DNA of 64,000 bases from an uncultured Bacteroidota bacterium (GTDB lineage: Bacteria; Bacteroidota; Bacteroidia; 2-12-FULL-35-15), in NCBI GenBank assembly GCA_903847205.1, contig CAINDA010000061.1:1-64000 (forward strand), written 5' to 3'. The notes beneath the pieces are model-generated. The model had not been told where the DNA came from. It saw nothing but the letters and a program-made list of their open reading frames with translations, and did not search any database. A program made the position numbers and the translations under genes. Positions 24,606 through 48,741 of this stretch are shown one piece after another; the stretch's first letter is position 1, and each line of letters opens with the position of its first letter.

Positions 24606-24772
24606 AGGGCATTTAAAAAATAAACAGGGCCTTTTCAATAAAAGAATAATTCACTCAATTATATAAACAATTCACGCAGCAGTATAAACAGTTCGCGCAT
24701 CTGTATAAAACTTCACGGAGCTATGTAAACAGTTCGCGGAATGATGTAAATACTTCACTCAATGATATAAAC
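24606..24772. repeat. Degenerate tandem array, 21-bp period (array A)
   Basis: From 24648 there are six consecutive units: 24648-24668, 24669-24689, 24690-24709 (one base short), 24710-24730, 24731-24751 and 24752-24772. Fixed in all six are A1, T3-T4-C5, C7, A10, T15 and T17-A18-A19-A20; the positions between vary. Two weaker units (about 24606-24647) probably precede them. The array lies upstream of the putative outer-membrane protein gene at 24999 and contains stop codons in the frames I followed. The rest of the 24404-24998 gap shows no recognisable RNA or gene. Confidence 0.8.
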
Positions 24773-24998
24773 ACTGTAATGATAGTGTGTCTTTCTGCAT
24801 TTTCTTATGCCGGATAAACTTTGCATTATCTCGGCAAATCCCCATCTACAGGAAAAGCAATGCGTCAGGTCAGGTTGTCGCTCATTGATATTAATTTCAG
24901 AACAATTGTATCTATTTTCAAAACAAAACGTATTCATCAGCCGAAATACAATAAAAAGGATATTTTTGAAAGCTGGTTTAACAAACAAATAGAACTAT

Positions 24999-25790
24999 AT
25001 GCGGCAGCTGCTCTTGTTTTATATTATGTCTTTTATAGTGCAGCCTGTATTTGCACAGCCTCTGGCTGTAAAGCCTGCTGCTGATGATGAAAAAAACTGG
25101 TCCTGGGATATACAAATTGACCAGCGGAATACTATTTATCTTAATAAAAATCTTTTAGGAACTGATGTTTCGGCAGGAGTAAGCGGTCTTGCAGCTGGCT
25201 TTACTTATCAAGATAGGTTTAGGTTTGGCCTGGGTGGATATTTCTCAAATGCCCAAAGCGCTTCAGCATCTTTTATAACCAATCAGCTTTATTTTGATAA
25301 AATAAAATTACTTGCACCTGGGGCAGTTACAATTACTAAAAAGGGAAAAAAGGGCTATCTGGTAAATACCACCTTAAACATGTATTATGTAACCCCGAGT
25401 TTTGAATATACTTTTTTTGAATCTAAGTGGCTTGATCTTAGTATTCCTGTGGAAGCGGGTGTTGGCTTTAGCAAATTGGTGCGGACTGATTTTTTTAGTG
25501 ATGCACCCATACCAATTATCAGCAAAACAGGCAAAGTACTTAAAGGAGGCGACATACTGCTTCCGGCAATGATAGGATTTACTGCTATGATCAATCTTTC
25601 GCCTGATGTAGGTTTTGCCGGTACAATAGGATACAGAAAAATACTTAAAGAAGTAGGTATCAGTCAAAATTTTGACGGTTTATATTATTCAGTAGGTTTA
25701 GCGCTTGTGCCGGAAAACATTATTGCTGCAATTAAGAAGGATTTTAAAGACAGGAAAAAGAAAGGAAAAGATAAAGAGGCGGCTAAATAA
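24999..25790 (+). CDS. Putative outer-membrane beta-barrel protein
   Basis: A 263-residue protein that I do not recognise by family. A signal peptide (MRQLLLFYIMSFIVQPVFAQ) is followed by alternating hydrophobic and polar strands rich in Gly and aromatic residues (WSWDIQIDQRNTIYL, GLAAGFTYQDRFRFGLGGYF, LNMYYVTPSFEYTFF, FAGTIGYRKIL, LYYSVGLALVP), the pattern of an outer-membrane barrel of perhaps 10-12 strands. The C-terminal 25 residues are Lys-rich (KDFKDRKKKGKDKEAAK), unlike a canonical barrel end, so a soluble tail may extend into the periplasm. The 21-bp array lies about 230 bases upstream. Confidence 0.6.
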   Translation: MRQLLLFYIMSFIVQPVFAQPLAVKPAADDEKNWSWDIQIDQRNTIYLNKNLLGTDVSAGVSGLAAGFTYQDRFRFGLGGYFSNAQSASASFITNQLYFDKIKLLAPGAVTITKKGKKGYLVNTTLNMYYVTPSFEYTFFESKWLDLSIPVEAGVGFSKLVRTDFFSDAPIPIISKTGKVLKGGDILLPAMIGFTAMINLSPDVGFAGTIGYRKILKEVGISQNFDGLYYSVGLALVPENIIAAIKKDFKDRKKKGKDKEAAK

Positions 25791-25848
25791 GTTTCTGAAA
25801 GTTGGGAAGCACTGCATCGGCATCTCAATATTCGCATTGGCACCTTAA

Positions 25849-28542
25849 TCACTTTACAACAAAATTGCGCACCCCGCTGTAATTTTTACTTTTAATTTTA
25901 GCGTAATACATTCCTGAAGTAAGATTCAGTGTCTGGCTGTATTTGCTTTGTCCGCTTAAAACAGCTGAATAAACAAGCCTTCCGGTAATATCAACAACTT
26001 CTAATTTAAAAGTTTCGCTGCTTAAGTCCGGTGAAACAGCCAGCGTGAATGAGCCGTTATTAGGCGAAGGAAATATGTCGAAATCAACATTATTATTTTT
26101 CTTCTCGCTGATACCTGCAGTATTAACAAGGCTTCCTTCCCAAACGCCTCTTCCGAAAGTAGAAATGTATACTTTATTAAGAGCAGTATTAAATTCAATA
26201 TCGGTAGTAATTACATTGGGCAGTCCCTGGCTTTCGTTTATCCAGCTGGTTGTTCCGGCATCAAACCTGTAAATGCCCAAATCTGTTGCAAGCCATACAT
26301 CGCCGGTAACAGGCTCTGTTTTAACACAGTTTACAGGTACATTAGGGAGATTTAAAGAGATGTTCTGCCAGCTTGTTCCGCCGTTAATTGTTTTATATAC
26401 CTTAATACCGGGAGTAAGTCCGGCCATTGAAACATAAGCAGTGTTTGCATCTGTCTGGCTTACATCCATGCTGGTGTAATACAAGCTGTCAGGCAGATTT
26501 GAGGTAATGTCTGTAAAGTTTACGCCTGCATCAATACTTTTGTATGCACCCGGAGGCGAGTTATAATCAAAGCGGATTCTACGGGCAGCATAGATTATAT
26601 TAGGGTTTGAGTTAGATACAGCCACTGCCGAAATTTCATTGTCGTAGATGCCGTTAAACGGGAATGGATTTGAATTGCTCCAGTTTACGCCGCCGTCGGT
26701 TGATTTGGCAACATTTGTAAAACCGCAGTATAAAGTGCCGTAGTTAACGTAGTCTGCAGCGATGGGACTTGTCCATTCGGCAGGTTCGTTATTTACATTC
26801 GGGTATGAATTAATAGTGGAAACGGCGTTAGTCTGTGATATATAAAAAGTCCCAAACTGGGATGAACCTATTACATTATTATCATCCACGGGGTCTAAAT
26901 AATTATCCATGCCGTCTCCGCCGAAAACGGTATTCCATGTGCCGCCGTCGTAATACATACTGGCATTGTCCTGCGCGCCTGCTATAATCCTTCCGGTTAC
27001 ATTTCTTGAACTTGAAATGCGGTAAAAAGAAGAAATGGCTAAGCCGTTGCTTATTGTTGACCAGCTTGTAGGCCATGGAGAGCCGAGATTAGCTGCGGCC
27101 CATGTCTGCGATGTTATTCCGGTTGTTTTGTAAAGCCCGCCGTCGCTGCAAACAAAAATATTTCCGGTGTTTTTCTGTGTTTCAATAAAATGAATATCGC
27201 CGTGTATGGTAGGCCCGTATGATAATGTCCAATGGCTTACAGGATTAAAGGTCAGCGCTCCATCAGTAGAAGCCCATAAATTTACGCCGCCTGTATATAC
27301 TGTGTTTTTATCAGCTGCATTCACAGTAAAGCCGAGATCATAAGTGCCTTGTCCGCCGGCAGAGGTGCCGTCTCCGGCTTCAAGCACATTTACCCCGGGA
27401 TTAATAAACTGCCAGGCTCCGCCTGCATTAATAGATTTATAAATACCCTTCATGCCCTCCTGCGCGTTCACTGCAAAGGCATAAATATAATTGGGGTCGG
27501 AAGGTGCAATAGCAAGTTTTATTCTTTGAATAGAATCTGAGGGCTGAATATTGGTTGGCAGCAAAGTCCAGGAAGCGCCGAAATTAGTCGATTTATATAT
27601 TCCGGCAGTACCGATGCGGGCATACACAAGCCATCCAGTGGCAGCATATAAAATATTCGAATTCACCGGATCCTGCACCATGTCCCAGAATAATGAGTCA
27701 AGTGTATGCGTCCATGTAAGGCCCGCATTTGCTGAGGTATACATACCGCTTACGCCGCAGGCAACAAGCTGATTACTGTTTGCAGGATTTACAAGCACCT
27801 TGCGGATTAAGGATGCATCGCCGTTTGTTAACTGAAAACTTAATCCGGTAGGAGCCCATGTTGTTCCGCCATCAGTAGTTTTATAAACGCCTAATCCGTA
27901 ATGTGTATTCCGCTTTCTTCCATCCAGCTTCAGCGATACATCAATGTATTCAAAATCGCAGAGTGATATATACATCACATTGGTATTGTTGGGATCAATA
28001 GTAATATCGCTTACGCGGATGATAGGTAAATTATCCGTTAAAGGAATCCATGAAACACCGTTGTTTGTTGTTTTCCATACTCCGCCCTGCGCAACACCGA
28101 CAAAATAAGTATTAGGGTCGGTAGGATGAAATGCAATGCAGTTGATGCGTCCGATGCCGTTCTGCATATATCCGGTTTCATTGCCTGGTAATGTAAATGG
28201 CCCTGCAGGCGACCATCCGATAGAATTAAATGATTTTGATTTTGCTTTATTATTTTTATCGTTTGCGACTTTTACTGCTTCATTAATATAAATGGCCGGA
28301 TCGCCGGGTTCGCCTTTGCCATTGGTTTTAAACTGCATATCGTTTTCCCAGCGTTTATAGTATTTCCAGTGTTTTGTTTTTTTAAGATCTGTTGTTTTCG
28401 ACCAGTCATCAAAACGTTTCTGCATTTCAACAAACGTTAATTTTTTTGCGGAGGTGTTTTTTTCAAGGAAAGCTTGAGCGCTGGAAAAGGTTATACAGAA
28501 AGCAGTTGCAGCGATAGTTAAATATATTTTTAATGCTTTCAT
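25849..28542 (-). CDS. Secreted BNR/sortilin-type beta-propeller protein with T9SS sorting domain
   Basis: An 897-residue secreted protein. A signal peptide ending near FSSAQ is followed by many BNR/VPS10-like propeller repeats (recurring GVYKTTDGGTTW, SADGGxxW and DPxNxNxxY patterns) from about 110 to 790. The C-terminus, from about 820 (DIFPSPNNGSFTLAV, LEVVDITGRLVYS, LNLTSGMYYAKI), is a type A T9SS sorting domain. It should be exported through the type IX system and attached to or released from the surface. Such propellers bind carbohydrates or act as adhesins; no catalytic motif is visible. Confidence 0.88.
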   Translation of the reverse strand: MKALKIYLTIAATAFCITFSSAQAFLEKNTSAKKLTFVEMQKRFDDWSKTTDLKKTKHWKYYKRWENDMQFKTNGKGEPGDPAIYINEAVKVANDKNNKAKSKSFNSIGWSPAGPFTLPGNETGYMQNGIGRINCIAFHPTDPNTYFVGVAQGGVWKTTNNGVSWIPLTDNLPIIRVSDITIDPNNTNVMYISLCDFEYIDVSLKLDGRKRNTHYGLGVYKTTDGGTTWAPTGLSFQLTNGDASLIRKVLVNPANSNQLVACGVSGMYTSANAGLTWTHTLDSLFWDMVQDPVNSNILYAATGWLVYARIGTAGIYKSTNFGASWTLLPTNIQPSDSIQRIKLAIAPSDPNYIYAFAVNAQEGMKGIYKSINAGGAWQFINPGVNVLEAGDGTSAGGQGTYDLGFTVNAADKNTVYTGGVNLWASTDGALTFNPVSHWTLSYGPTIHGDIHFIETQKNTGNIFVCSDGGLYKTTGITSQTWAAANLGSPWPTSWSTISNGLAISSFYRISSSRNVTGRIIAGAQDNASMYYDGGTWNTVFGGDGMDNYLDPVDDNNVIGSSQFGTFYISQTNAVSTINSYPNVNNEPAEWTSPIAADYVNYGTLYCGFTNVAKSTDGGVNWSNSNPFPFNGIYDNEISAVAVSNSNPNIIYAARRIRFDYNSPPGAYKSIDAGVNFTDITSNLPDSLYYTSMDVSQTDANTAYVSMAGLTPGIKVYKTINGGTSWQNISLNLPNVPVNCVKTEPVTGDVWLATDLGIYRFDAGTTSWINESQGLPNVITTDIEFNTALNKVYISTFGRGVWEGSLVNTAGISEKKNNNVDFDIFPSPNNGSFTLAVSPDLSSETFKLEVVDITGRLVYSAVLSGQSKYSQTLNLTSGMYYAKIKSKNYSGVRNFVVK

Positions 28543-28564
28543 TTGGGGGAGAAGGTTTGTATTA

Positions 28565-28572
28565 CAAATATA
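28565..28572 (-). promoter_or_regulatory. -7 element for the BNR-propeller gene
   Basis: On the minus strand the sequence is TATATTTG, an exact TAnnTTTG match 22 bases before the start codon. No clear -33 TTG was found. Confidence 0.45.
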
Positions 28573-28759
28573 AAGAAATTTAAATAGGCGCTTTGGGGTT
28601 GGTTACGGCCAGCTGCCTTCCCGCAAAATTATCTTGCATGTTTATTCTCTGCAGTTCGAAATCATCTTATGAAAACGCGCGTGAGGCTTGAATAAACGCG
28701 ATGCGGTTCTGCCCGTGGGGAGCAGCCGTTTGTTCTTGAAGGTCCAGCACCGGCTGACT

Positions 28760-28811
28760 CAAATGTGTCCCACACATTTGCCCTGTTTCTTTTGTATTAG
28801 GACAAAAGAAA
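28760..28811. repeat. Two adjacent perfect hairpins in a 540-base gap
   Basis: CAAATGTGT, three bases, ACACATTTG forms a 9-bp perfect stem (28760-28780). Five bases later TTTCTTTTGT, six bases, ACAAAAGAAA forms a 10-bp perfect stem (28786-28811). The gap 28543-29083 is GC-richer in its first 200 bases than its surroundings. It may be a structured RNA or a mobile repeat; no gene is visible in it. Confidence 0.55.
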
Positions 28812-28993
28812 GAATTAAACTTTTGAAGCGGAATCAAACAAATAATTTAAATCCATTTTAATTTGTTTTACTATTCCGATTTTTAAATTTCCAATTAAAA
28901 TCAATCCAAGCCCCAGTACTTGTGTTTAATTCCCTCGCTTCAAAATCATCTTTTGGAACCGCACTAAATCCATTTAATCAGTATAATTTTTAA

Positions 28994-29023
28994 TTGGACG
29001 AAAGAATATAAATTTTAGTTTTG
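28994..29023 (+). promoter_or_regulatory. Complete Bacteroidota-type promoter
   Basis: TTG (28994-28996) and TAGTTTTG (29016-29023) are separated by exactly 19 bases, matching the TTG-N19-TAnnTTTG consensus. It points towards the lipoprotein gene at 29084, giving a leader of about 55 bases. Confidence 0.65.
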
Positions 29024-29083
29024 TAAAAAAGCGGCAAGGTTTATGTTTTGCAATAAAAATCATAGCTAATCAGGTACTAACAA

Positions 29084-30142
29084 ATGCTTAAAATTATGAA
29101 ACATTCAATTACAAATTATTTATCTGCCGGGGCAGTTCTTCTTCTGCTTTCATCCTGCAAAATGTCTTATGTCAGCATAAATGCAATGCGGCCTGCAGAT
29201 ATAACTGTAAGTGAGCACATTCAAAAAGTCACAGTTGCAGAACGGATAAAACCTGCCAAAGGCTATAAGTTAGCCAATGCAGTTGAAGGGATTTTATCAG
29301 GAGAAGGCTTATTTGAAGACAGGGAAGCCGCCCCTGAGGCCGTGAGCGGTTTGGTGAATGCCCTAGTTACTACGCCAAGGTTTAAATGTACTATAATGCC
29401 CGGAGAATTATTAGGTACCGGAGGCAGTATTTTGCCGCCTGCATTGGGCTGGGACGAAGTAAAAAGAATATGCTATGAAAATAATTCGGATGCCTTAATC
29501 ACCTTAGATATATTTGATTCAGACCAATCCACAAGTATTATTGAGGGGACCAGAGAAACAAAAAATAAAGAAGGAGTTGTTAAAAAGGTTCCGGAGTTTA
29601 CTGCCCAAATGAATATAACAGTAACCTGCGGCTGGAGAATTTACGATACCTTAACCCAGACAATTGTTGATGAAGCAAGAAATGTAGATTCGAAAATGTT
29701 TGAAGCAAAAGGCGATACCAGGCGTGCCGCTGAAATGGGACTTCCATTAAAAAGAGAGGCAGTAAAACAAACCGGTTATTATTCAGGTAACAAATACGGC
29801 AGCCGGATTTCTCCTTCATGGATTGTTCTCACCAGAACATATTACAAAAAAGGAACCGACAATTTTGTTATGGCAAAACGGTTTGTGCGGTCTCAAAACT
29901 GGGACAGCGCAGCTGAAGCATGGAAAAAAGAATTGAATAACCCCAATAAAAAATTGGGCGGATACGCAGCTTATAACATGGCCTTAGCTTCTGAAATACA
30001 AGGAAAAATAGACTTGGCAATTGATTGGGCGGATAAAGCGTATGAGGATTACGGCAATAAAAAAGCAAATTATTATGCAGCGCAGTTAAGAGCACGTAAG
30101 GCAGATGAAGCCCTTTTAGATATACAGTTAAAAGGTAAATAG
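29084..30142 (+). CDS. Lipoprotein, possibly DUF6340 family, with TPR-like C-terminus
   Basis: A 352-residue lipoprotein; the lipobox LLSSC follows a hydrophobic signal. The N-terminal part (MRPADITVSEHIQKVTVAERIKP) and the central GWDEVKRICYENNSDALITLDIFDSD are typical of Bacteroidota lipoproteins that I associate with DUF6340. The C-terminal 80 residues (DSAAEAWKKELNN, AAYNMALASEIQGKIDLAIDWADKAY) look like two TPR units. Function is unknown. Either ATG 29084 or ATG 29096 could be the start; both leave an intact lipoprotein signal. A consensus promoter lies upstream and a strong terminator downstream. Confidence 0.7.
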   Translation: MLKIMKHSITNYLSAGAVLLLLSSCKMSYVSINAMRPADITVSEHIQKVTVAERIKPAKGYKLANAVEGILSGEGLFEDREAAPEAVSGLVNALVTTPRFKCTIMPGELLGTGGSILPPALGWDEVKRICYENNSDALITLDIFDSDQSTSIIEGTRETKNKEGVVKKVPEFTAQMNITVTCGWRIYDTLTQTIVDEARNVDSKMFEAKGDTRRAAEMGLPLKREAVKQTGYYSGNKYGSRISPSWIVLTRTYYKKGTDNFVMAKRFVRSQNWDSAAEAWKKELNNPNKKLGGYAAYNMALASEIQGKIDLAIDWADKAYEDYGNKKANYYAAQLRARKADEALLDIQLKGK

Positions 30143-30251
30143 TCGTGTTTGAATTATATCTCGGGAAAATTGTCAGCGACTGAATGATGATTATACAAGT
30201 ATCCGGATTTGAAAAACAGAAAAGAATTTTAAGTCTTCTATATCTATAATA

Positions 30252-30286
30252 AAAAAGAGCGGCACCGATTCGGTGCCGCTCTTTTT
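30252..30286. terminator. Strong bidirectional terminator
   Basis: A perfect stem AAAAAGAGCGGCACCGA / its complement around a TT centre, flanked by A and T runs on the two sides. It lies between two converging lipoprotein genes and can serve both strands. Confidence 0.92.
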
Positions 30287-30344
30287 GTTATTGAAAAACA
30301 ATTTAATATTAAGCAGCCGGCTTTCTTTGCTTATGGAAGCCTTC

Positions 30345-31223: not shown

Positions 31224-31280
31224 GGCTTTTGGTTTTTAATTGTTAATATTAATTGTGATTGTTAGTTTTAATTTCTACAA

Positions 31281-31308
31281 CAAATTTAAACCAAGAATAA
31301 ACGCTCAA
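31281..31308 (-). promoter_or_regulatory. Promoter of the 30345-31223 lipoprotein gene
   Basis: On the minus strand TTG (31308-31306) and TAAATTTG (31288-31281) are 17 bases apart. TAAATTTG is an exact TAnnTTTG match, 57 bases before the start codon. The spacing is two bases shorter than the usual 19. Confidence 0.6.
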
Positions 31309-31320
31309 TTTTAGAAAAGG

Positions 31321-31383
31321 GTGAACGCTGGGGAATATTTAGTTAACGTTTGAGAATTTATAGTTAACGTTTTAAAGTTTGGA
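31321..31383. promoter_or_regulatory. LytTR-type direct repeats, 21 bp apart
   Basis: GTTAACGTT occurs at 31342-31350 and again at 31363-31371, with exactly 12 bases between; a weaker GTGAACGCT lies one step earlier at 31321. On the minus strand the unit reads AACGTTAAC, fitting the LytTR consensus [TA][AC][CA]GTTN[AG][TG] at 8 of 9 positions. The block begins 12 bases upstream of the -33 TTG of the lipoprotein promoter, a typical activator position. Confidence 0.6.
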
Positions 31384-31556
31384 GAAAATCAAGGAAAATA
31401 TGGATGAAAAAGGTAAGGCAGATATAATAATTGATATAAATTTGCACAGGAGCAGCCGATAAACACTATATCACAGTTGATTAATAGGGGTTTTAATAAT
31501 TTGAACAAATTATTATTAGCGCTAAAACAGCTCATGTTTCATTACTATGGAGAGTG

Positions 31557-32309: not shown

Positions 32310-32454
32310 TGTTTACGGGGGTTCTAAAAAATTAAATTTAATATTAACAGAAGCCGAAGTAAATTCAAGTACAATCTTATTTGTAATCGGTTTTAGGCTT
32401 TACTCCAGCAGGTATAAAAATAATTAAAAATCAATACAAAGGCATACCGATATA

Positions 32455-34338
32455 TTAGATCTGTAATTGAAGTTTCATTTTTCTCAAAGGGATACTCAAT
32501 TCAACTGTAGTTCCGATAGGAAGATTATTTTTATCTTCCACATCTTTAATATCAGCACGAATATCAATATTCTCTTTCGCACTGATCAGTTCGAGCCTTT
32601 CATGAAGAATTGACATACCCATGGATTTATGAGTAAGCTCCGTCATTTTTTTGATTTCCATTGCCTTTTTTCTTCCAACGCCGTTATCACTGATTTTACA
32701 GATAAGCACATTGTTTATTATTTTAAATCCGATTTTGATTTGCCCATCATCATCTCTTCTGGGCGCAATGCCGTGTATAATAGCGTTTTCAATATACGGC
32801 TGAATAAGCATGGAGGGGATTTCTATTATTTCAGTATCAATTATCGGATCGATTGAAATTGTATAACTGAATTTTTTACCGAAACGTAATTTTTCGAGTT
32901 CTAAATAATCTTCCAGCATTTTTATCTCAGACTCCAGTGAAATAAAAGCATGATCAGAATTTTCGAGAGTTGCGCGAATAAGTCTGGCAAATTTTGATAA
33001 AAATTTAGCCGCAGATACCGAATCGTTTTGAGTCATAAAGCTTTGAATTGACGCCATGCAATTAAAAATAAAATGAGGATTCATCTGTGATCGCAAGGCT
33101 TTAAGCTCGGCATTAAACCATTTGCCTTCCAGTTCAAACTTCTTTTTTTCTGTGTCGGTTTTTTCCTGAAGCGATTTTATATTTTCCGTTTTCCTTCTTT
33201 GTATTAAAATCCAGATGATGGCACCGGCGAGCAATGCGAGAAATACAAGTAATACATAAGCCGCTTTTTTTTCACTTCTCTCTCTTTGTAAACTAAGCTC
33301 TTTTATTGCCTGTTCGGTTTTAATAGCAGCTTCTTTTTTATCAAACTCATAATTCATTTCTTTACGCACCAATTGCTTTTTGTTTTCCTGGCTGAAAAGC
33401 GTATCCTTCAGTGCGACTGCTTTTTTAAAATGTAAGAGAGCTTCTTTGTGTCTCCCAATTGTATCGTACAGCTTTGAGAGCAGCTTTTCCGACTGCATTA
33501 AGTCATTCATAAAGCCGATGCTGTCATTCATCCTTAAAGCTTTTTTTAAATATTGTTCTGCTTCTTTAAATTTTCCGGTAGTAGTATAAAGTGAACCTAT
33601 ATTTCCTAATGTTGTGGCAATTTGATTTTTATTTCCGGCCTTTTCTGAGGCCTTTAAAGCTTGAAAATAGAAATCTAAAGCCTGCGGATAATCCTTCAGC
33701 TGATTATAGGCAGCACCGATATTGCCAAGCCAGATTTCATTTTTTTCCCTTTGTCCTTCAGACATTTTTAAGGCTTTGAAATAATATTCCAGTGCTTTGG
33801 GATAGTCGGATTGATCTGCATATACGCTTCCAATGTTGCCAAGCCAGGTTTCAATATTGTTTTTATCTCCAAGTTCTTTCGACATTTTCAAAGCCTCGAA
33901 ATAATAATTCAAAGCCCTGGTATAATCGCTTTGATATAAATAAACATTTCCAATATTTCCGAGCCGGGTTGCTATTCCTTTTTTATTTTTAATGTCTTCG
34001 TCTATTCTCAAAGCTTTTAGATAAAAATCCAGAGCAAGCGGATAGTCAGCCTGAAGACGATAAATATTTCCGATATTATTGCTTGCCTGCGCCGTACCTT
34101 TTTTAAAATCTAATTTGCCGGCAAGCTTTAATGCGTCTTCCCCGCATCGCAAACCTTTTTCAAAATTCCCTGTAAGCTGATATTCATGCGTTAATTGATA
34201 AAGGTGAATAACTTTGAGAGTATCCGGTTTTTCCGTTTTGATAAGAGTTAGAAGTGAATCAATGTTTTTGTTTTGGCCAAAACAACTTAAAATTAAAAGT
34301 CCGGAATTTAAAATTGTGAGGAGAAGAAATTTTTTCAT
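32455..34338 (-). CDS. TPR-repeat sensor histidine kinase, LytS type
   Basis: A 627-residue kinase. A signal peptide (ending near SCFGQ) is followed by seven or so TPR repeats (recurring ATRLGNIGNVY and DYPxALxYYFKALK; about 55-310). A membrane helix at about 352-373, a coiled coil and a LytS-type kinase domain follow, with NPHFIFNCMASI (His422), LIQPYIENAIIHGI and SDNGVGR. The sensing half closely resembles that of the SpoIIE-type proteins at 229-4953, so the same sensor module is joined to two different output domains in one region. ATG 34338 is preferred over an in-frame TTG at 34353 for the signal peptide; the TTG is part of a promoter-like element. Confidence 0.9.
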   Translation of the reverse strand: MKKFLLLTILNSGLLILSCFGQNKNIDSLLTLIKTEKPDTLKVIHLYQLTHEYQLTGNFEKGLRCGEDALKLAGKLDFKKGTAQASNNIGNIYRLQADYPLALDFYLKALRIDEDIKNKKGIATRLGNIGNVYLYQSDYTRALNYYFEALKMSKELGDKNNIETWLGNIGSVYADQSDYPKALEYYFKALKMSEGQREKNEIWLGNIGAAYNQLKDYPQALDFYFQALKASEKAGNKNQIATTLGNIGSLYTTTGKFKEAEQYLKKALRMNDSIGFMNDLMQSEKLLSKLYDTIGRHKEALLHFKKAVALKDTLFSQENKKQLVRKEMNYEFDKKEAAIKTEQAIKELSLQRERSEKKAAYVLLVFLALLAGAIIWILIQRRKTENIKSLQEKTDTEKKKFELEGKWFNAELKALRSQMNPHFIFNCMASIQSFMTQNDSVSAAKFLSKFARLIRATLENSDHAFISLESEIKMLEDYLELEKLRFGKKFSYTISIDPIIDTEIIEIPSMLIQPYIENAIIHGIAPRRDDDGQIKIGFKIINNVLICKISDNGVGRKKAMEIKKMTELTHKSMGMSILHERLELISAKENIDIRADIKDVEDKNNLPIGTTVELSIPLRKMKLQLQI

Positions 34339-34341
34339 CAA

Positions 34342-34353
34342 TCTAAAATACAA
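34342..34353 (-). promoter_or_regulatory. Start-adjacent promoter-like element, third copy
   Basis: On the minus strand this reads TTGTATTTTAGA, almost the same as the elements before ATG 229 and ATG 2446. It ends 3 bases before the start codon of the TPR kinase. Confidence 0.35.
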
Positions 34354-34610
34354 TTATATTCTTAAATCGTTAACACAAATTTCTGCTGCTTGTTCTTGGC
34401 TTTGCCGGTGTTTTAGAATTTTTTTATAAAACAGCTGAACAATGGCTGCCCGGCAATTTTTCTTTAATGAACCAGCTGAATAATCTAATTCAATTACGGA
34501 TACAAATTTTCTATTACGCCAGCCTGATGTAATTAACTGACAGCCCATCACCTTCTAATAACAGCGTGCACTAAATTAGTTTTAGTGTAGCTTTTATATT
34601 TTAAAAAACT

Positions 34611-38349: not shown

Positions 38350-38685
38350 AAAGAAATGACTCAGGAAAGTGAGAAATGGCTCCTCACACGTGAGAAATCG
38401 TATCTGACACTTGAGAAATTGCATCTCACGATTAAGAAATAGCTCCACACACCAGAGAAATGGCATCTGACACTTGAGAAATCGCATCTCACTATTAAGA
38501 AATCGCATCTGACACTTAAGAAATCGCTCCTCTCACCTGAGAAATGGCATTTCACTATCGAGAAACCACATCTGACACATGAGAAATCGCATTTGACACT
38601 TGAGAAATCGCATCGGACTATCAAGAAATAGTTCCTTGCACTTGGGAAATCGGATCTGACAAATGAGAAATTACCTCCTCCTACT
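38350..38685. repeat. Degenerate tandem array, 21-bp period, 15 units (array B)
   Basis: Fifteen units of exactly 21 bp run from 38371 to 38685 without an indel (unit starts 38371, 38392, 38413 and so on in steps of 21). A 20-base unit precedes them at 38351, and a looser one may start near 38327. GAAA at unit positions 3-6 is invariant in all fifteen; position 1 is G or A, and a TGACACTT-like end recurs. Positions 7-15 vary most. Minus-strand frames through the array stay open only because 21 is a multiple of three. The array fills much of the 877-base gap between the beta-barrel and lamin-tail genes. Confidence 0.92.
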
Positions 38686-40165: not shown

Positions 40166-40193
40166 AGTAGTTCCAAAAATTCAAAAAAGAACT

Positions 40194-40302
40194 TAACCGC
40201 AAAGAACATAAAGAATGCGCAAAGCTCGCTAAGTAATGATTTCATTTATTTCTTTGCGAACTTTGCGTTTTTGTGTTTGCGGACTTTGTGGTAAAAAAAT
40301 AA
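40194..40302. repeat. Imperfect inverted repeat of phased GCAAAG motifs
   Basis: The left side (AACCGCAAAGAACATAAAG, then GCGCAAAGCTCGC) and the right side (CTTTGCGAACTTTGCG, then TTTGCGGACTTTGTGGT) are inversely related, each made of roughly 10-base steps ending in AAAG. It lies just upstream of the TonB receptor gene. Confidence 0.55.
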
Positions 40303-40369
40303 TTTTTGGAACCGCCCTTAAATTACTAAAGAAACTTTAATAAGGGAAAAATTGAATAAACAAGTACCA

Positions 40370-43300
40370 ATGAGTCAATTTAAAGATTTTAAAACGAAAA
40401 AAAACAGCAGTTTCAAAGTAACCTTGTTTTGCATATTACTTATTCAGCTTTTGGCGTTCACAGCCTCATTCGCACAAACAACTCCAGCAGCCGAAACAAC
40501 CCCGGCAGCCCCGGCAACGCAGATAGTAAAGGGCAGTATTAAAGACAATGCCACGGGCGAAACCCTTATCGGCGCCAATGTATTATATGCCGAAGGCAAA
40601 GGAGTAATAACCGATATTGACGGCAACTTTGAACTTAAATTACCTGACGGCGATTACACATTAACAATTTCTTATGTAGGTTATGCCCCAATAACTCAAA
40701 AAATAAAAGTTGCCGGAAAGCCCGTCACTGTTCCGTCTTTAAGCATGGCGTCCACTACGCTGACAACTGTGGAAGTTGTGGCGGATATTGCTAAAGAACG
40801 TGAAACCCCCGTTGCCGTGAGCAGCGTAAATGCTTTAAAATTAAAAGAAGAATTAGCAGGCAGGGATATCCCTATGGTACTTAACTCCACGCCAGGTGTA
40901 TATGCAACCCAATCGGGCGGCGGTGCCGGCGATGCCCGGATTACTATCAGGGGATTCAATCAGGCAAACATTGCCGTGCTGATTGACGGTATTCCTGTAA
41001 ACGATATGGAAAACGGTGCGGTATATTGGAGCAACTGGAGCGGCTTAGGAGGCATTACCAGAAGCATACAGGTGCAGCGTGGTTTGGGAGCTTCCAAATT
41101 AGCTATAGGGTCGGTAGGCGGTACTATGAATACAATAACCAAAGGTATTGAAGATAAAGCCGGCATAAGTGTTCAGGAAGACATTGGCAGTTTTAATTCC
41201 AACAAACAAACCTTTTCATTTAATACAGGGCGTTTAAAACACGGCTGGGGAGTAACCGGTGCCGTATCTAAAGAAAGCAGCGACGGCTATGCCGATGAAA
41301 CATGGAGTAAAATTACCTCCTATTTCTTTAAAGTTGAAAAACAACTGGGTAATCACATGCTGAGCTTCAACACCAGCGGTGCGCCTCAGAGTCATGGGCA
41401 GCGCTCATCTGCCATGCCGGTGCAGGTGTACGATAAAAAATTTGCCGCACAGCACGGAGGCGATACTGTTACTTATGCTGCATCATCCAGCCTTAACACG
41501 GTAGAAAGAGGTTTGAAATTTAACCAGGATTGGGGCTATGCCGGACTGGGCGTGGTAAACACCAAAGTAAACAAGTTCTATAAGCCTCTTTACAGCCTGC
41601 GGGATTTTTGGACAGTCAATGATAAACTGTATATCTCCACAGTTGCCTATGCGTCTTTCGGTACGGGAGGAGGGACAAGCAACGCCTTTACCACCAATTC
41701 TTTAGGGGATTTTGATAAAAACGGGCAGCAAAATTATACCTACTCCTTTCAAAAAAACACCGGCTCTATACCCGGAACAACTGCCATAGATCAAACCTAC
41801 AGCCCTACCCTGAATAAAAGCACCAATTATATTCAACTAGCGGAAAATAATCATAAATGGTTTGGTGTTTTATCCTCGGCCAACTATAAGATAAACAGTA
41901 ATCTTACCTATACCGGGGGACTTGATTTGAGAACCTATACAGGATACCATGATTACAGGGTTTATAACCTTATCGGCGGAGATTATGTGGTGGATAGTAA
42001 AAACAAGAACATGCCCCAGTTAACATATACATTAAATCCGGATGGAACCTACAGCTATCAAAATGCAAGCTACGTTATGAAGCAGGTGGGTGATAAAGTT
42101 GGAAGCACTTATTATACGGATTATGAGGGACATGTAAACTGGGCAGGAGTCTTCAATCAATTGGAATATAAAAAGGATAAATGGAGTGCTTTTATTACGG
42201 CTTCTTTTTCCGAAACAGGTTATATGCGTGTTGACAATGCAGCCAGGAAAGATTTACAATTAGACAACGGCAACAATTATTATCAGGCTCTTGGCTGGGG
42301 CGATACGGCCTATTATGACGCCTCAAAAAATAAATTAGTAATTAATGCTTTCAATAAAACAGCAGGAACGCTTGCAAATACTCATTACACTAATGTGCAT
42401 ACTATCGGCGACACCACTTACATCGGTACTCAAAAATTATATAAAGCGCAAACGTATACAGGCAGCTCTAAAGAAGCCAAAACATCAGCCAGTAAATGGA
42501 ACTATTATTTGGGATATGTAATAAAAGGCGGAGCCAACTATAATATAAATAAGATGATGAACGTGTACGCCAATTTTGGCACTATAAGTAAAGTACAGCC
42601 GTTCAATAATGTTTTCGGCGATTACAACAAACCCCTCGCAGACGTTAAAAATCAGAACATTATGTCGGTTGAAGTAGGATATGGAGCAAGATACAAACTC
42701 TTCGCAGCCAATGTAAATACCTATTATACCAAATGGCTTAATAAACCATTGGACTTTCCGGGTACTTTTTCTACATCCGATGCTTCTTATGCCTACAACA
42801 TCAACGGTTTAACTGAAATTCATAAAGGCATTGAGGCAGATATTGCTTATAATCCGCTCCCTAATCTTACCATCGAAGGCTTGGCATCCATTGCCGATTG
42901 GCGTTATGCTTCAGCCGATTCAGTAAAAGCTTATGATGCTAATGGAAACAGGGCAGTAACCTTGTATTACAGCGCTATAGGGGTGCATGTGGGAAATGCC
43001 GCGCAATTGCAATACGGAGGAAGTGTGCGTTATACTATTTTTAAAAATTTCTGGGTAAAAGCCCAGTATGTTTACTTTGATAAAAATTATGCTGCATTCA
43101 ACCCGGTAGGTACCGCTGGTCAGGCGCTCACCAATTCACAACCGTCTGCCGATATATCGAAACTCATTCCTTTAACTAACCAGCAGGGTGCACTGATTGA
43201 CAATAGAAACAGGGATTCATGGAGGATGCCCGGTTACGGCATTTTAGATTTACATGCAGGATACAGCTTTAAGTTTCAAGGAGCTAACCTTACTTTGATG

Positions 43301-43462
43301 TTACATGTGCTGAATGCTTTAAATACTGTTTATATAGCGGATGCTACAAATAATTATTATCCTTCAAGAGTTGGAGGCAACTATGATTTCAGTATTAATA
43401 ATGCATCCGTATTTTTTGGCTTACCCCGGAGATACATGGCTTCTATAAGAGTAGATTTTTAA
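40370..43462 (+). CDS. TonB-dependent outer-membrane receptor
   Basis: A 1030-residue receptor. A signal peptide (ending near TASFAQ) and a Pro/Ala/Thr-rich linker precede a carboxypeptidase-regulatory-like domain (VKGSIKDNATGETLIGANVLY). The plug follows (VNALKLKEELAGRDIPMVLNSTPGVYA split by a Gly-rich loop, then DARITIRGFNQANIAVLIDGIPVNDME), then a 22-strand barrel ending RRYMASIRVDF. No SusD-type partner is encoded beside it, so it is not a classic polysaccharide utilisation locus. Its neighbours suggest nucleotides, phosphate esters or metals as possible ligands, but this is inference. ATG 40370 was preferred over TTG 40352. Confidence 0.93.
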   Translation: MSQFKDFKTKKNSSFKVTLFCILLIQLLAFTASFAQTTPAAETTPAAPATQIVKGSIKDNATGETLIGANVLYAEGKGVITDIDGNFELKLPDGDYTLTISYVGYAPITQKIKVAGKPVTVPSLSMASTTLTTVEVVADIAKERETPVAVSSVNALKLKEELAGRDIPMVLNSTPGVYATQSGGGAGDARITIRGFNQANIAVLIDGIPVNDMENGAVYWSNWSGLGGITRSIQVQRGLGASKLAIGSVGGTMNTITKGIEDKAGISVQEDIGSFNSNKQTFSFNTGRLKHGWGVTGAVSKESSDGYADETWSKITSYFFKVEKQLGNHMLSFNTSGAPQSHGQRSSAMPVQVYDKKFAAQHGGDTVTYAASSSLNTVERGLKFNQDWGYAGLGVVNTKVNKFYKPLYSLRDFWTVNDKLYISTVAYASFGTGGGTSNAFTTNSLGDFDKNGQQNYTYSFQKNTGSIPGTTAIDQTYSPTLNKSTNYIQLAENNHKWFGVLSSANYKINSNLTYTGGLDLRTYTGYHDYRVYNLIGGDYVVDSKNKNMPQLTYTLNPDGTYSYQNASYVMKQVGDKVGSTYYTDYEGHVNWAGVFNQLEYKKDKWSAFITASFSETGYMRVDNAARKDLQLDNGNNYYQALGWGDTAYYDASKNKLVINAFNKTAGTLANTHYTNVHTIGDTTYIGTQKLYKAQTYTGSSKEAKTSASKWNYYLGYVIKGGANYNINKMMNVYANFGTISKVQPFNNVFGDYNKPLADVKNQNIMSVEVGYGARYKLFAANVNTYYTKWLNKPLDFPGTFSTSDASYAYNINGLTEIHKGIEADIAYNPLPNLTIEGLASIADWRYASADSVKAYDANGNRAVTLYYSAIGVHVGNAAQLQYGGSVRYTIFKNFWVKAQYVYFDKNYAAFNPVGTAGQALTNSQPSADISKLIPLTNQQGALIDNRNRDSWRMPGYGILDLHAGYSFKFQGANLTLMLHVLNALNTVYIADATNNYYPSRVGGNYDFSINNASVFFGLPRRYMASIRVDF

Positions 43463-43665
43463 TCCAAGAATAATCAGGAATAAATATAATATTCCAATAT
43501 TAAACAACTTATTTTCGGGTTAAGGAAAACGTTCAAATTAAACGGCCTCGAATTAAGCTGACGAGGTATTAAACAAAAGCTGACACTGAAATTATAAAAC
43601 AGCAAAGTGTTTTATAAAAAAGGAATAGGATTACGAACCGCTTTTATCAGGGACAAATATATACA

Positions 43666-44898
43666 TTGAAAACAAAATTACTCTTAGCAGCATCCCTGAC
43701 TTTCAATCTTTGCCTTGAAACGCATAGTTCTTTCGCTCAATTCAGTTTTGTTCATATTTCCGACCTCCACGTTTCCAGTGTTGCTTCTTCAGTAAATGCA
43801 TGTGACCTTCATGGTTTAAAGGCCCAGTGTTATTTGAAAGAATTTGCTCAGATCAATCCTAAACCGGCTTTTGTGCTTGCCACAGGAGATATTTCAAATG
43901 TAGGAAACAGCAATCCTGGGATGTATAATGTGCTTACTCAGTTTTTATTCCCGTCAGCTGTTGTCAATCCAAGTCCTGGCGCTTATTTTATTGATTCGGC
44001 GCAGACGGTGCCAATTTATTTTACACCCGGCAACCATGATTATTATACCACACTTTATCCTCCGGGCAGCCTCACTCAGTTAAATCATGTAAGCAATTAT
44101 GCCCAATACATTGCACCAGATACTGATTATGCGGTTACAACAAACATCTCTGTTATTTTATTTGTGCGGTCGGGATACGATATACCTTATTGGAGTCAGC
44201 CAGACCCAATAACTCCTGCAGGAGCAGGGATTACGAATGCACAATGCAGCTGGATCAGAAATCAGCTGAGCCAGAACAGCAGCAAAAGAAAGATTATTGT
44301 AATGCATCATCCCGCAGTAAACATTGCCGGTACAAACTGTGATGGAACAGCTTATACAACCGAAACTATTTTAAGCCCTTCCGCGGGCACCTGGCTGGCT
44401 AATAGAACTGCATTTCTTAATATCTGCGATTCAAACCAGGTAGATGTGGTTCTGGCAGGGCATCAGCACCAAAACGTAGTTGCCGACAGGGCAGGAAATG
44501 TGATTAATGAAAATTGTACCACCTGCGGCACCCGCTATGTTCAAACGGGTGCGGCATTTAATGGCTGCTTCCGGGTTATTACTGTTGACTCATCATTTAT
44601 TAATGTAAGTTCTCCATTACAAAGCTGTGCAGCCGTGGCAGGAGTGGACGAATTGAGCAATTCATTGAACATTACTGTTTTCCCAAATCCGTCCGGCGGA
44701 GAATTGAATTTAACTATGAGTCAATCGGGAAGCGTGCCCATGAAAATTTACAATGTACTTGGAGAATGCATTCAACAGAATACTGTTACAGCTTCAAACT
44801 TTAGAATTGATTTAAGTTCTCAGCCGAACGGGGTTTATTTTATGCACCTGCAAACTGAATACGGCAGAGTTATTAAAAAAATATTCATTAATAAGTGA
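43666..44898 (+). CDS. Secreted calcineurin-like phosphoesterase with T9SS sorting domain
   Basis: A 410-residue secreted metallophosphoesterase. All metal-binding blocks are present: HISDLHV, ATGDISNVG, TPGNHDYY, VMHHPAV and AGHQHQN, within about residues 28-270. Paired Cys residues (DGTAY region and NCTTCGT) may form disulphides. A type A T9SS domain ends it (VFPNPSGGELNLTM, MKIYNVLGE, LSSQPNGVYFMHL). The start is TTG at 43666: no ATG precedes the signal peptide, and the first codons match those of the next gene (KTKLL), which uses ATG. It probably cleaves phosphomono- or diesters outside the cell. Confidence 0.88.
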   Translation: MKTKLLLAASLTFNLCLETHSSFAQFSFVHISDLHVSSVASSVNACDLHGLKAQCYLKEFAQINPKPAFVLATGDISNVGNSNPGMYNVLTQFLFPSAVVNPSPGAYFIDSAQTVPIYFTPGNHDYYTTLYPPGSLTQLNHVSNYAQYIAPDTDYAVTTNISVILFVRSGYDIPYWSQPDPITPAGAGITNAQCSWIRNQLSQNSSKRKIIVMHHPAVNIAGTNCDGTAYTTETILSPSAGTWLANRTAFLNICDSNQVDVVLAGHQHQNVVADRAGNVINENCTTCGTRYVQTGAAFNGCFRVITVDSSFINVSSPLQSCAAVAGVDELSNSLNITVFPNPSGGELNLTMSQSGSVPMKIYNVLGECIQQNTVTASNFRIDLSSQPNGVYFMHLQTEYGRVIKKIFINK

Positions 44899-45026
44899 CC
44901 TGTTTATTTTTAGATAATCAGCCGGGGCGCAAACATAGTTGACGGATATTAAAAATTAAAGAATACATTAGATTTAATAAATAATAAGCAATAGTAAAAA
45001 CCAATAGTAAACAACAAATAAAACAA

Positions 45027-47282
45027 ATGAAAACCAAATTACTTACACTAACGGCAGCAGCATGTTTTGCGATTCAGCTGAATGCCCAAACAATCGCAAC
45101 GGAAAGGGCTGCAGCAGTAGGCAGTACAGTAACAATTAAAGGCATTGTGCTCAACGGCTCTGAATTAGGAAATATAAGATATGTGCAGGATGCTACAGGA
45201 GGTATTTCTCTTTATGGCACCAATATGTCAACTGTTAACAGAGGCGACTCCGTTAATTCAGTTGGAACCCTTACCAGTTATAGTAATTTGTTGGAAGTTT
45301 CTCCGGTTACTACTGTAGGTGTTATATCATCCGCACACGCACTTCCTACACCTGCACTCATCACTCCAAATCAAATGGGCGAAACTTATGAAGGGGAGTT
45401 GATAAAGCTTAACGGCTGTACTTTTGCTTTGGGCGGAGGTACTTTCACCGCTAATACTTCTTATACCTTCACCAGCGGAGGTCAGACAGGAACAGTGTTT
45501 GTTTCAAACACTAACCTTTTGATTGCCGGAACAATCATTCCGAGCACTCCGGTTAATTTAGTCGGAATTATGTCTCAGCACTGCACAACCCCTGCAACAG
45601 GCTGTACAACAGGTTACCAAATGCTGTTAAGAGACCCTAATGATATCCTTAATACTGCTTCTATATATTTAACTGCTCAGCCTTCGCCGGCAAATATTGC
45701 AGCAACAAGCATTGACATTAACTGGACTACAAACATTGCCGGTTCAGGAATTTCGTATATTAAATACGGTAAAACACCGGCTTTAGAATTAGGTACTCTT
45801 ACAGCTACCAATTCAACAGTTAACCACACTGCTACTATTACAGGTGCAACTGCAGCAACTATTTATTATGCACGTGTATATTCAATTAACCTGCCTGATA
45901 CTGCAAGTTCTGCTGTAAAAGTATTTTGTACTAAATCTAACTCAACAGGTACTATTAAAGCCTTTTTCGACCGCAGTGTTAATCTTGCTGTTTCAAGCGG
46001 ACCCAGCAATAACGCTTCATACTTAAGCAACGGCACTATTGCAGATACTATTGCTGCATATATTAACCGCGCTCATGCAACATTAGATATTGCAATTTAT
46101 GACTGGGACAATGCAACAGGAGGGGCTAAAATAACTACGGCAGTAAATGCTGCAGCCACCAGAGGCGTTAAAGTAAGAGTTGTTTATGACGGATCTACAA
46201 CACAATCTGGCTCAGCGGGATTAATTGCAGCGGTTAAAAAAGTAGCAAGTCCGCAGGGGGTAAGCTACACCATTATGCATAATAAATTTATTATTATTGA
46301 TGCGAATTCATCCAACCCTAATCTTCCTTTCGTTTGGACAGGTTCAACTAACTGGACAAGCAGCCAATTAGCAACTGATGCCAACAACGCAATTGTTTTT
46401 CAGGATCAAAGTATGGCACGCGGATATAAATTAGAATTTGACGAAATGTGGGGAGATACCAGCCAGACATCAAGTGCTAATACTACACTTGGTAAATTCG
46501 GGCAGTTTAAAGCAGATAATACTCCTCATGAGTATATGGTAGGTTCAAAGAGAGTTGAATCATATTTCAGCCCTTCTGACGGAACTACAACACATATAAT
46601 CGCAACTATCGGAACAGCTAATTCTGATTTTGAATTTGGTTCGATGTTAATTACCCGCTCTGATATTGCAAACAAAATTGCAAGCCAGACAACAACAATC
46701 GGCGTTGGTAATTCAAAAGGAATTGTAGATGACACAGCTGCTGCAAGTTCACAATGGTATATTATGCATAATGTGATGGCTGCCAATGTTATAATAAGCC
46801 AATTTTCCTGGATATTCCATCATAAATACCTAATTGTAGATCAGTCTAACACAGCTTCTGACCCAACAGTATTAACAGGTTCTCATAACTGGTCAACTGC
46901 AGGTGAAACTAAAAATGACGAGAACACCGTTATTGTTCATGATGCAGCCATTGCGAATCAGTATTACCAGGAGTTTTCTCAGCGCTGGATTGATGAAACC
47001 ACTACCGGAATTAATACTTATAATTACGAAAATTTGAATGCAGTAATTTATCCTAACCCAAACAATGGTTCGTTTATGTTAAATTATACTGCTAAACAAA
47101 ATGAAAAAGTAAGTGTAAAATTATATGACCTTATCGGCCATTTAGTTTATGATAATGAATTAAAAGTAAACAGCGGTTTTAACCCGATTGAAATGAATAT
47201 ACCAAACCTGAATAAAGGAATCTATTTATTCGAAATGGTAACAGAAAACGGAAGACAGACAAATAAGCTGGTGATTCAATAA
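45027..47282 (+). CDS. Secreted phospholipase-D-type protein with OB-fold, FN3 and T9SS domains
   Basis: A 751-residue secreted protein. A signal peptide (ending near QLNAQ) is followed by an OB-fold region (about 20-205, VTIKGIVLNGSELGNIRYVQ), a fibronectin-III-like domain (about 215-305) and a phospholipase-D-type region with two HKD motifs: MHNKFIIID (His418, Lys420, Asp425) and HHKYLIVD (His598, Lys600, Asp605). Each motif is followed by TGSTNW or TGSHNW. A type A T9SS domain ends it. The PLD superfamily includes nucleases and phospholipases, and the OB fold favours nucleic acid as the substrate. Both half-sites are intact. It lies 128 bases after the phosphoesterase. Confidence 0.9.
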   Translation: MKTKLLTLTAAACFAIQLNAQTIATERAAAVGSTVTIKGIVLNGSELGNIRYVQDATGGISLYGTNMSTVNRGDSVNSVGTLTSYSNLLEVSPVTTVGVISSAHALPTPALITPNQMGETYEGELIKLNGCTFALGGGTFTANTSYTFTSGGQTGTVFVSNTNLLIAGTIIPSTPVNLVGIMSQHCTTPATGCTTGYQMLLRDPNDILNTASIYLTAQPSPANIAATSIDINWTTNIAGSGISYIKYGKTPALELGTLTATNSTVNHTATITGATAATIYYARVYSINLPDTASSAVKVFCTKSNSTGTIKAFFDRSVNLAVSSGPSNNASYLSNGTIADTIAAYINRAHATLDIAIYDWDNATGGAKITTAVNAAATRGVKVRVVYDGSTTQSGSAGLIAAVKKVASPQGVSYTIMHNKFIIIDANSSNPNLPFVWTGSTNWTSSQLATDANNAIVFQDQSMARGYKLEFDEMWGDTSQTSSANTTLGKFGQFKADNTPHEYMVGSKRVESYFSPSDGTTTHIIATIGTANSDFEFGSMLITRSDIANKIASQTTTIGVGNSKGIVDDTAAASSQWYIMHNVMAANVIISQFSWIFHHKYLIVDQSNTASDPTVLTGSHNWSTAGETKNDENTVIVHDAAIANQYYQEFSQRWIDETTTGINTYNYENLNAVIYPNPNNGSFMLNYTAKQNEKVSVKLYDLIGHLVYDNELKVNSGFNPIEMNIPNLNKGIYLFEMVTENGRQTNKLVIQ

Positions 47283-47300
47283 TAAAACAGCATCATTGCT

Positions 47301-47338
47301 AAAAAGCCGGCAGTCCTGAAGGACGGCCGGCTTTTTTT
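47301..47338. terminator. Bidirectional terminator
   Basis: Stem AAAAAGCCGGC with GTCC/GGAC inner pairing and a TGAA tetraloop, followed by seven T. It separates the converging PLD and SPFH genes and overlaps the last codon of the latter. Confidence 0.92.
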
Positions 47339-48293
47339 ATTTTGTTTCATCTCTTAATGAAAGCGGTGTTTTTCCATCGGTTATAATAACCTTGGTATTC
47401 GGCGAGGCCGACAGCGCTTTTAATGCATCAATTGATTTGTATTGTATCAGCAGAGGTGTAAGTGAGGGGGCAATAAGTTCCTGCGCCTTTTTAGCGGCTT
47501 CCGCTTCCATGATTATCCGCTCCGATTCCTTTTTTTGTTTTTCTATTGCAAAATCAACCTGCATGCGCTCCTGCTCAATGGCTGCCGATTTTGACCGCTT
47601 TTCTTTTTCAAAGTTAAATTCCATTTCCAGTCTCTGTTTTTCTATTGATGCCTGTGTTTTTATTTTCTCAATCTGATTATCTACCTCCTGCTGTTTAGCT
47701 TCCTGCTCTAGGAACACTTTCTTTTCAATGGCGCGGTCAATGGTATCGGGCACATCAATATCGCGCACCAATACTTGGTCCATCACAAAACCGTAACGCC
47801 CAATATCGGTATTCATATTATCGAAAATGGCTTTCTCCAATGAATCGCGCTGCACCATCAAATCCATGGCCTTATAGTTTAAACAGGTTTCCCTGGCTGT
47901 CGCTTCAAAGTTGTTTTTTACGATGGCGTTCTCATAATTTAAGCCCAGGGTTTGATAAATATCATGTATTGCATCGGGTTTGATGTGATAAAGAAGAGTA
48001 ATGTCTGCTTTAGCCTCCAAACCTTCCTTTGTGGGCAGAGTCATTTTTATAGAAAGCTCTTTGATACGGATATTAAACTTAACATAGTGCATTCCTATGC
48101 CTGAATAGTGCCAGCCTTGAGCATAAACCCCGGATTTCAGTTTTCCGTGAACAACCTTTAGTCCAAGTTCACCCGGCCGGATGGTGGAGCAGCTCTCAAT
48201 CGTAAGTAATGGGATAGTGAATGCAAAAAAGATTAGTACTGCTCCGGCAGAATCTTTGATTCTTTTTCGGATAAAGGGTAACGCTGTTTCCAT
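47337..48293 (-). CDS. SPFH/prohibitin-family membrane protein
   Basis: A 318-residue protein. A membrane helix or lipoprotein-like signal at about 15-35 (FFAFTIPLLTIESC) is followed by an SPFH domain (IRPGELGLKVVHGKLKSGVYAQGWH, TKEGLEAKADITLLYHI, RDIDVPDTIDRAIEKKVFLEQEA) and a long charged coiled coil with EKQR and EAEAAKKAQEL repeats. Prohibitin-type proteins form ring scaffolds in the membrane and often control proteases. The start is taken at ATG 48293 (METALPF), because the upstream extension to TTG 48353 has no conserved character. The 21-bp array C begins about 155 bases upstream. Confidence 0.88.
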   Translation of the reverse strand: METALPFIRKRIKDSAGAVLIFFAFTIPLLTIESCSTIRPGELGLKVVHGKLKSGVYAQGWHYSGIGMHYVKFNIRIKELSIKMTLPTKEGLEAKADITLLYHIKPDAIHDIYQTLGLNYENAIVKNNFEATARETCLNYKAMDLMVQRDSLEKAIFDNMNTDIGRYGFVMDQVLVRDIDVPDTIDRAIEKKVFLEQEAKQQEVDNQIEKIKTQASIEKQRLEMEFNFEKEKRSKSAAIEQERMQVDFAIEKQKKESERIIMEAEAAKKAQELIAPSLTPLLIQYKSIDALKALSASPNTKVIITDGKTPLSLRDETK

Positions 48294-48447
48294 GGTTTTT
48301 AAGAATTTAAGGAAGATGAAATTAATTGTATTAAAATCATCCCTCTTAATCAAAAAACCGGAGGGAGAATTTTATAAACTGATACCATCAATCCCTAAGC
48401 CGTTGTTCTTAAATAAAAAAAGCTTAACAAATATTAACGCTTTAATT

Positions 48448-48741
48448 GGTTTTATAATGCATCCAAATGGTTTTGGAAAGTTTCCGGATGGTTTTTTTAT
48501 AAAACCATTTGGCCGAATTCATAAACCAGCGGGCACAGCTGTTTTATCAACTGTTTTTATAATAAAGCCATTTGGTTTTATTATAGATACGGCTGTATTT
48601 ATAATAAATCCGATTGGTTTAAAAGCAGAGCCGGTTGTTTTTATTTAATATCCGATTGGTTAAATAATAAATCCCGTTGTTTTTATTTAGAATCCAAATG
48701 GTTTTATAAAGAAACCATCAGGCATTATATTAAAACCAATC
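48448..48741. repeat. Degenerate tandem array, 21-bp period, 14 units (array C)
   Basis: Fourteen units of exactly 21 bp run without indel (starts 48448, 48469, 48490 and so on to 48721). G1 and C17 are invariant; C16-C17 is CC in 12 of 14. The consensus has GG-TTTT at 1-6, an AT-rich centre, CC at 16-17 and four variable bases, giving a recurring dyad CC-N4-GG across unit borders. Looser units probably extend the array back to about 48340 and forward to 48762. Several units have stop codons in the frame open in the others. The gap 48294-49136 otherwise holds only a 10-bp perfect hairpin at 48831. Confidence 0.9.

Follow-up and report, generated by a model that had tools for sequence, protein, structure and literature searches.

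How can three loci on one stretch of a bacterial chromosome share a repeat period, and nearly lack insertions and deletions, without sharing a repeat sequence? A first-pass annotation of the 64-kb stretch of DNA analysed here (the window) had claimed this for three arrays, A1, A2 and A3, and had suggested templated or phased amplification, or a structural constraint such as helical phasing, as the cause (Table 1). The shared period was confirmed at all three positions, each of them intergenic: lag 21 is the best of lags 15-30, with an autocorrelation identity of 0.58 at A1 (24591-24779; 0.40 at the runner-up lag), 0.66 at A2 (38370-38684; 0.34) and 0.52 at A3 (48442-48756; 0.36), and none of 2,000 shuffled sequences matched any of these signals at whatever lag. 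The near absence of indels is borne out for the 15 units of A2 and the 14 of A3, one of which is badly degraded, with all units in phase. The claim of differing sequences holds for the most part; the exception is A2, which has two relatives in its own genome (L012:11197-11690 and L017:11399-11797), the three arrays making up a dispersed sequence family.

Table 1 Arrays, their surroundings and additional array–gene pairs. Positions are those of the window unless a genome (G) and contig (C) are named.
Feature	Location	Strand	Description
Imperfect inverted repeat framing A1, left arm	24579-24601	.	
~20-bp repeat pair ahead of A1 units	24591-24634		flank of A1
Array A1	24654-24779	.	6 in-phase degenerate 21-bp units, ~CGCATTATTATAAAACTTTAC; solo
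Imperfect inverted repeat framing A1, right arm	24799-24821	.	
Array A2	38370-38684	.	15 units of TGAGAAATCGCATCTGACACT; indel-free; solo
Array A3	48442-48735	.	14 units of ~CCAATTGGTTTTATAATAAAT; dyad-symmetric; 5' of partner gene
Linker, A3 to partner-gene start codon	48736-49136	+	
Partner gene	49137-49760	+	207 aa; predicted helical N-terminal half, Fn3-like C-terminal half
Array–gene pair	G000 C5: array 86958-87254, gene 87409		
Array–gene pair	G015 C1: array 23550-23887, gene 24204		
Array–gene pair	G008 C33: array 44988-45242, gene 45365		
Array–gene pair	G005 C136: array 44-172, gene 449		

A1 is the weakest of the three, with six clear units and the flanking pair of roughly 20 bp; the inverted repeat around it was equalled by none of 60 shuffles, a result of modest significance. 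A2 contains a 63-bp higher-order pattern. Elsewhere in the window, two near-identical 21-bp units in intergenic DNA (31333-31374; GAATATTTAGTTAACGTTTGA and GAATTTATAGTTAACGTTTTA) are possibly a nascent or vestigial array. A strong lag-120 periodicity at 493-3460 and 33621-33900 falls in long open reading frames (ORFs; 214-2430, 2446-4953 and 32455-34353) and corresponds to 40-residue protein repeats.

The arrays are members of a class with a common period and locus-specific sequences, as had been supposed, and the class is genome-wide. The lag-21 scan of non-coding DNA that the first-pass annotation had suggested was run on 789 kb sampled as stretches from the source genome (G000; 5.49 Mb in 72 contigs, with parts of contig C28 read as N), and it returned 34 periodic segments outside long ORFs. 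Control lags of 17, 19, 22, 23, 25 and 26 returned none over the same 789 kb and lag 20 returned three, the stretches scanned at that lag including a 20-bp array 5' of a gene of the partner family described below. Signals at 42 and 63 bp are harmonics or higher-order units of 21-bp arrays, and no class with a period of 31-32 bp or any other length appeared in the lag scans of the sampled DNA. Other arrays of this genome reach about 25 units, with a consensus that differs from locus to locus. The unit period is 21 bp, rarely 20 or 22, and does not drift, which keeps tandem sites in constant helical phase; 21 bp are two turns of B-DNA, in agreement with the idea of helical phasing.

What the arrays have in common is thus the period rather than a sequence. 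One small family of related arrays exists (A2, L012b and L017), most others share no sequence, and a single palindrome or sequence common to all was excluded. Coding heptad repeats were rejected as an origin, A3 and L020 being interrupted by stops in all six frames and showing no codon-position bias in their variability. No Rfam family matched in the window, no convincing common motif or leader emerged across the array flanks, and framing inverted repeats accompany a minority of arrays, the clearest being a 31-bp imperfect pair in G015 (L095:16771-16801 and 17025-17055). Two other kinds of repeat were seen along the way. Microsatellites of 7-8 bp, which form a class separate from the 21-bp arrays, occur in the same array-bearing genomes (7-bp units such as TGACTAA, AAATAGG and TTTGTTA; L098:11416-11499, L036:16842-16890 and L047:12907-12955), and the G000 samples hold very long coding repeats with a 9-bp period (STGSTGSSG..., collagen-like), for example at L020 just 3' of a partner-family gene, in predicted proteins of more than 2000 aa.

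Sampled DNA from 36 genomes of the genus contained arrays in eight cases (G000, G004, G005, G012, G014, G015, G045 and G051). A whole-genome test for six AAA triplets at successive intervals of 21 bp separates the same eight, with 384, 608, 441, 242, 491, 408, 588 and 576 matches, respectively, from the remaining 28, with 0-12 matches each. A control spacing of 24 bp, likewise a multiple of three, gave 0-16 matches in all 36 genomes and none in G000. The signal, far beyond chance across the genome, therefore recurs elsewhere in it and in relatives, whereas the first-pass annotation had named its absence there as a sign that the three loci may be chance minisatellites. Outside the genus, one short example was seen, an array of four units of TGCTCGGCCCGTGAGAAGATC in a genome of another family of the same class (G033; L108:971-1054).

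A gene that co-occurs with such arrays, for which the first-pass annotation had suggested looking, does exist and encodes a protein of about 205-235 aa. The first-pass annotation had seen no obvious reverse transcriptase, transposase or Cas gene beside any array, but A3 does have a neighbour of note: the gene downstream of it belongs to this family. Five array-adjacent proteins, the A3 neighbour included, group into a single family of great divergence, 205-235 aa long, with a helical first half and an Fn3-like second half, and a profile built from these five seeds was searched over the 36 genomes. It gave 20 hits in G000, 17 in G015, 14 in G005, 13 in G051, 8 in G045, 7 in both G012 and G014, and 6 in G004. 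Among the 28 array-poor genomes, 22 have no hit and four have a few (G008 5, G006 2, G016 1 and G050 1), and two further hits outside the array-rich genomes lie inside giant proteins. Members in other taxonomic families were found in G084, G176, G303, G305 and G242.

The nature of these proteins is only partly visible. The partner protein of the window matches Pfam fn3 weakly, below the cut-off. In the A2-alignment subgroup of the family, one member matches Pfam fn3 at 1.4e-7, and the subgroup profile aligns over its C-terminal part with Fn3 chains in the PDB; the A3 subgroup gave no match. Beyond this weak similarity, the family is unmatched in Pfam, NCBIfam and PADLOC. Pfam and NCBIfam gave no known DNA-binding domain in the partner protein, and no match to Rep, ParR, ParB, omega, TubR or ParA/ParM/TubZ. 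A structure predicted from the window protein alone was uninformative (mean pLDDT of 32). A conserved second gene was not found in these loci; a scan of genome contigs for an SPFH neighbour gave one locus, and homology among the large array-flanking proteins was rejected, as only a T9SS sorting tail is common to them.

The tie between gene and array is close and one-sided. Upstream DNA of 100 bp or more was readable at 26 family loci, and 25 of these have an array 5' of the family gene (20 of 21 without the five seeds). The distance from array end to start codon is mostly below 500 bp (about 1 kb in one G008 case), and no comparable array was seen 3' of the genes at these 26 loci. Because nearly every family copy has an upstream array, array and gene look like one chromosomal module. 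Coordinates from independent searches add four pairs (Table 1), whereas around one more member (L008:12733-13386) a stretch of 2.5 kb is free of arrays. With the exception of one in G006, the few members known from G016, G050, G006 and G008 are also accompanied by arrays, and in G008 the phased pattern occurs in a single place, directly 5' of a family gene. The Bacteroidetes -7 promoter motif TAnnTTTG, considered as a feature of the DNA between array and gene, was found in 3 of 23 linkers, which is not significant.

Arrays outnumber detectable genes, more than half of them being solo; the surroundings of A1, for instance, contain no match to the family profile. Of about 13 clear arrays in the G000 samples, four stand beside an intact member (A3, L020, L024 and L047) and two beside a short or broken family match (L030, E value of 4e-5, and, more weakly, L036, E value of about 0.01), and the family search of this genome also lists gene fragments and members with internal stops. 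The simplest reading would be that solo arrays have lost their gene after the array formed.

Solo arrays are also what one would expect of a selfish or neutral satellite, in which 21-bp repeats spread by slippage and unequal exchange and the link to a gene reflects an insertion-tolerant neighbourhood or co-transfer. Rapid turnover of unit sequences and the presence of microsatellites in the same genomes agree with such an origin, as do the 42- and 63-bp higher-order patterns, which resemble ordinary unequal exchange or slippage; templated amplification is unsupported, no gene capable of it having been found beside the arrays. We nevertheless regard the satellite account as unlikely. It does not predict that arrays should lie on one side of 25 of 26 family genes, that the period should be fixed at 21 bp to the exclusion of other classes, or that the rare family genes of array-poor genomes should have arrays as well. 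Nor does it predict dyad symmetry. Tested by column permutation, 18 of 40 arrays are symmetric at p ≤ 0.05, and the mean z is 1.78 overall, 2.39 for gene-linked arrays and 1.11 for the others; a sizeable minority of arrays shows no symmetry.

The symmetry outlasts the sequence. At orthologous loci the unit has changed symmetrically in both half-sites while period and symmetry were kept, as in L254 and L273, whose proteins are 84% identical and whose units read CTTGAGnCTCAAG and CTTTTGnCAAAAG, respectively; in L248, L250, L252 and L261, a GAA..TT core is kept and the outer bases of the two arms change together. Proteins that are 70-84% identical can thus have clearly different arrays, so that a binder would need to change its specificity quickly.

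Symmetric change of the unit would be expected if a dimer binds it, but also if one strand folds on itself, and the latter leads to an RNA mechanism, in which the transcribed array would work with the protein as a long or repeated hairpin, leader-like or guide-like. Several arrays, including A3 and L030, are indeed predicted to form one long stem with a folding energy far below that of same-period controls, and a few show compensatory changes inside single units. Overall, however, within-unit covariation is weak (mean z of 0.37 ± 0.23, with mirrored deviations in those few arrays only), L012b, L024 and G5c fold no better than controls, and there is no Rfam match in the window. The gene strand has 210 G-U pairs compared to 250 A-C pairs, and the absence of a G-U excess favours DNA over RNA. 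We consider an RNA mechanism distinctly unlikely.

Array and gene could also travel together as a mobile element, the array being a transposition or integration site. Many divergent copies sit between unrelated housekeeping genes, some with broken genes and a minority framed by imperfect inverted repeats, and the distribution is patchy: G000 groups near the array-poor G002 in an rpoB tree, apart from the clade (support 100/100) that unites the other seven array-rich genomes. Against mobility speak the lack of a transposase-like domain, conserved ends or common flanks, and the lack of plasmid, phage or viral-contig relatives in searches with the few queries tried. Arrays at orthologous places in relatives, moreover, suggest vertical descent. 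The porU-porV intergenic gap is 25-170 bp in most relatives and 758 bp, with an array, in G000. We judge a mobile element quite improbable. In the ispF-downstream neighbourhood beside porV (L223, L224, L229, L231, L237 and L226), five clade members have arrays, the units being related in G012 and G014 and unrelated in G004, G015 and G051, and G005 has a partner-family gene there together with its own array.

A process driven by a transposase fares no better, as Y1 transposases occur irrespective of arrays (11 matches in the array-free G016 compared to two each in the array-rich G000 and G004), and RAYT/Y1 enzymes were rejected as their cause. In G004, RAYT-like Y1 relics and REP-like hairpin copies (GCAGGTGnAAAAACACCTGC) surround two arrays (L130:1-570 and L130:1571-1801). 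Finally, intrinsic curvature, by which the period would be maintained since phased units bend DNA, would suit units of exactly two helical turns whose sequence is free to vary between loci, but is scarcely tenable, because predicted curvature, often above that of shuffled DNA, almost never exceeds that of column-permuted arrays of the same period, so that the bending seems to come with the period as a side effect.

We favour, at slightly less than an even chance, the reading that the arrays are part of a two-part chromosomal module and provide a row of putative binding sites for a dimeric protein on DNA. The anatomy was observed directly: a locus-specific array of about 5-25 units of 21 bp lies 5' of a single gene for a protein of about 205-235 aa. 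The array would act as DNA, its dyad-symmetric putative sites lying two helical turns apart and hence all on one face of the helix. A dimeric protein, most likely the one encoded next to the array or a partner of that protein, may occupy these sites cooperatively, which would make each locus a self-contained, operator-like autoregulatory module. Paralogues would then diverge jointly with their own arrays, unequal exchange would homogenise the units, and many modules would later lose the gene and leave a solo array. Our confidence is held back because the partner protein has no recognised DNA-binding domain and its predicted structure is uninformative; for Fn3 domains, moreover, DNA binding would be unusual.

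A bolder form, that each helical-Fn3 protein reads its own 21-bp-phased array, giving in Bacteroidota multi-copy orthogonal pairs whose arrays turn over faster than the proteins, in the manner of an arms race or of a self-propagating element, is less likely than not. If it holds, each genome would have dozens of orthogonal protein–DNA pairs whose specificity shifts between sister species, the evolution of recognition would be directly testable and new DNA-binding parts would become available. If it does not, the arrays would be bacterial satellite DNA of an unusual kind that carries its own ruler. In both cases, they offer a first functional lead for a group of 'hypothetical' genes.

Loci that pair such an array with a gene appear to form a new class, of putative function: the literature searched describes no such arrays or pairs, its coverage being partial and thus weak evidence of absence. 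In mechanism, the closest known systems are iterons and partition centromeres, which we compared by description. Iterons and ParR-, TubR- or omega-type arrays are helically phased direct or dyad-bearing repeats 5' of the gene of their binder, and iterons resemble the 21-bp arrays in unit length and helical phasing. The arrays described here differ in being chromosomal and present in many copies per genome, each with a consensus of its own, and their partner is a helical and Fn3-like protein, with no ParA/ParM/TubZ or Rep seen beside its gene. REP sequences are conserved within one genome; like REP/BIME elements with RAYT, the arrays are numerous, intergenic and in part palindromic, but they differ in sequence between loci and are independent of Y1 numbers. 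With CRISPR they share regular spacing, and L036 resembles fixed anchors with a variable centre, but the whole 21-bp unit repeats, variants are shared between units, there are no unique spacers, and no cas genes were noted among the flanking proteins scanned. In appearance, the closest relatives are the direct repeats of the heptamer TAACTGA, a single 7-bp sequence that abounds between the genes of Beggiatoaceae, Cyanobacteria and some Bacteroidetes, has a patchy distribution among species and is mostly located just 5' of the start codons of varied genes (PMC4679880). The 21-bp arrays are likewise intergenic, direct and patchy, but have longer units of unrelated sequence and one gene family. 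The partner protein thus sets them apart from iterons and centromeres and the unit from heptamer repeats, and the combination of a two-turn period, a free sequence and a one-sided tie to one gene family, common to an entire lineage, is unlike the known bacterial repeat classes compared.
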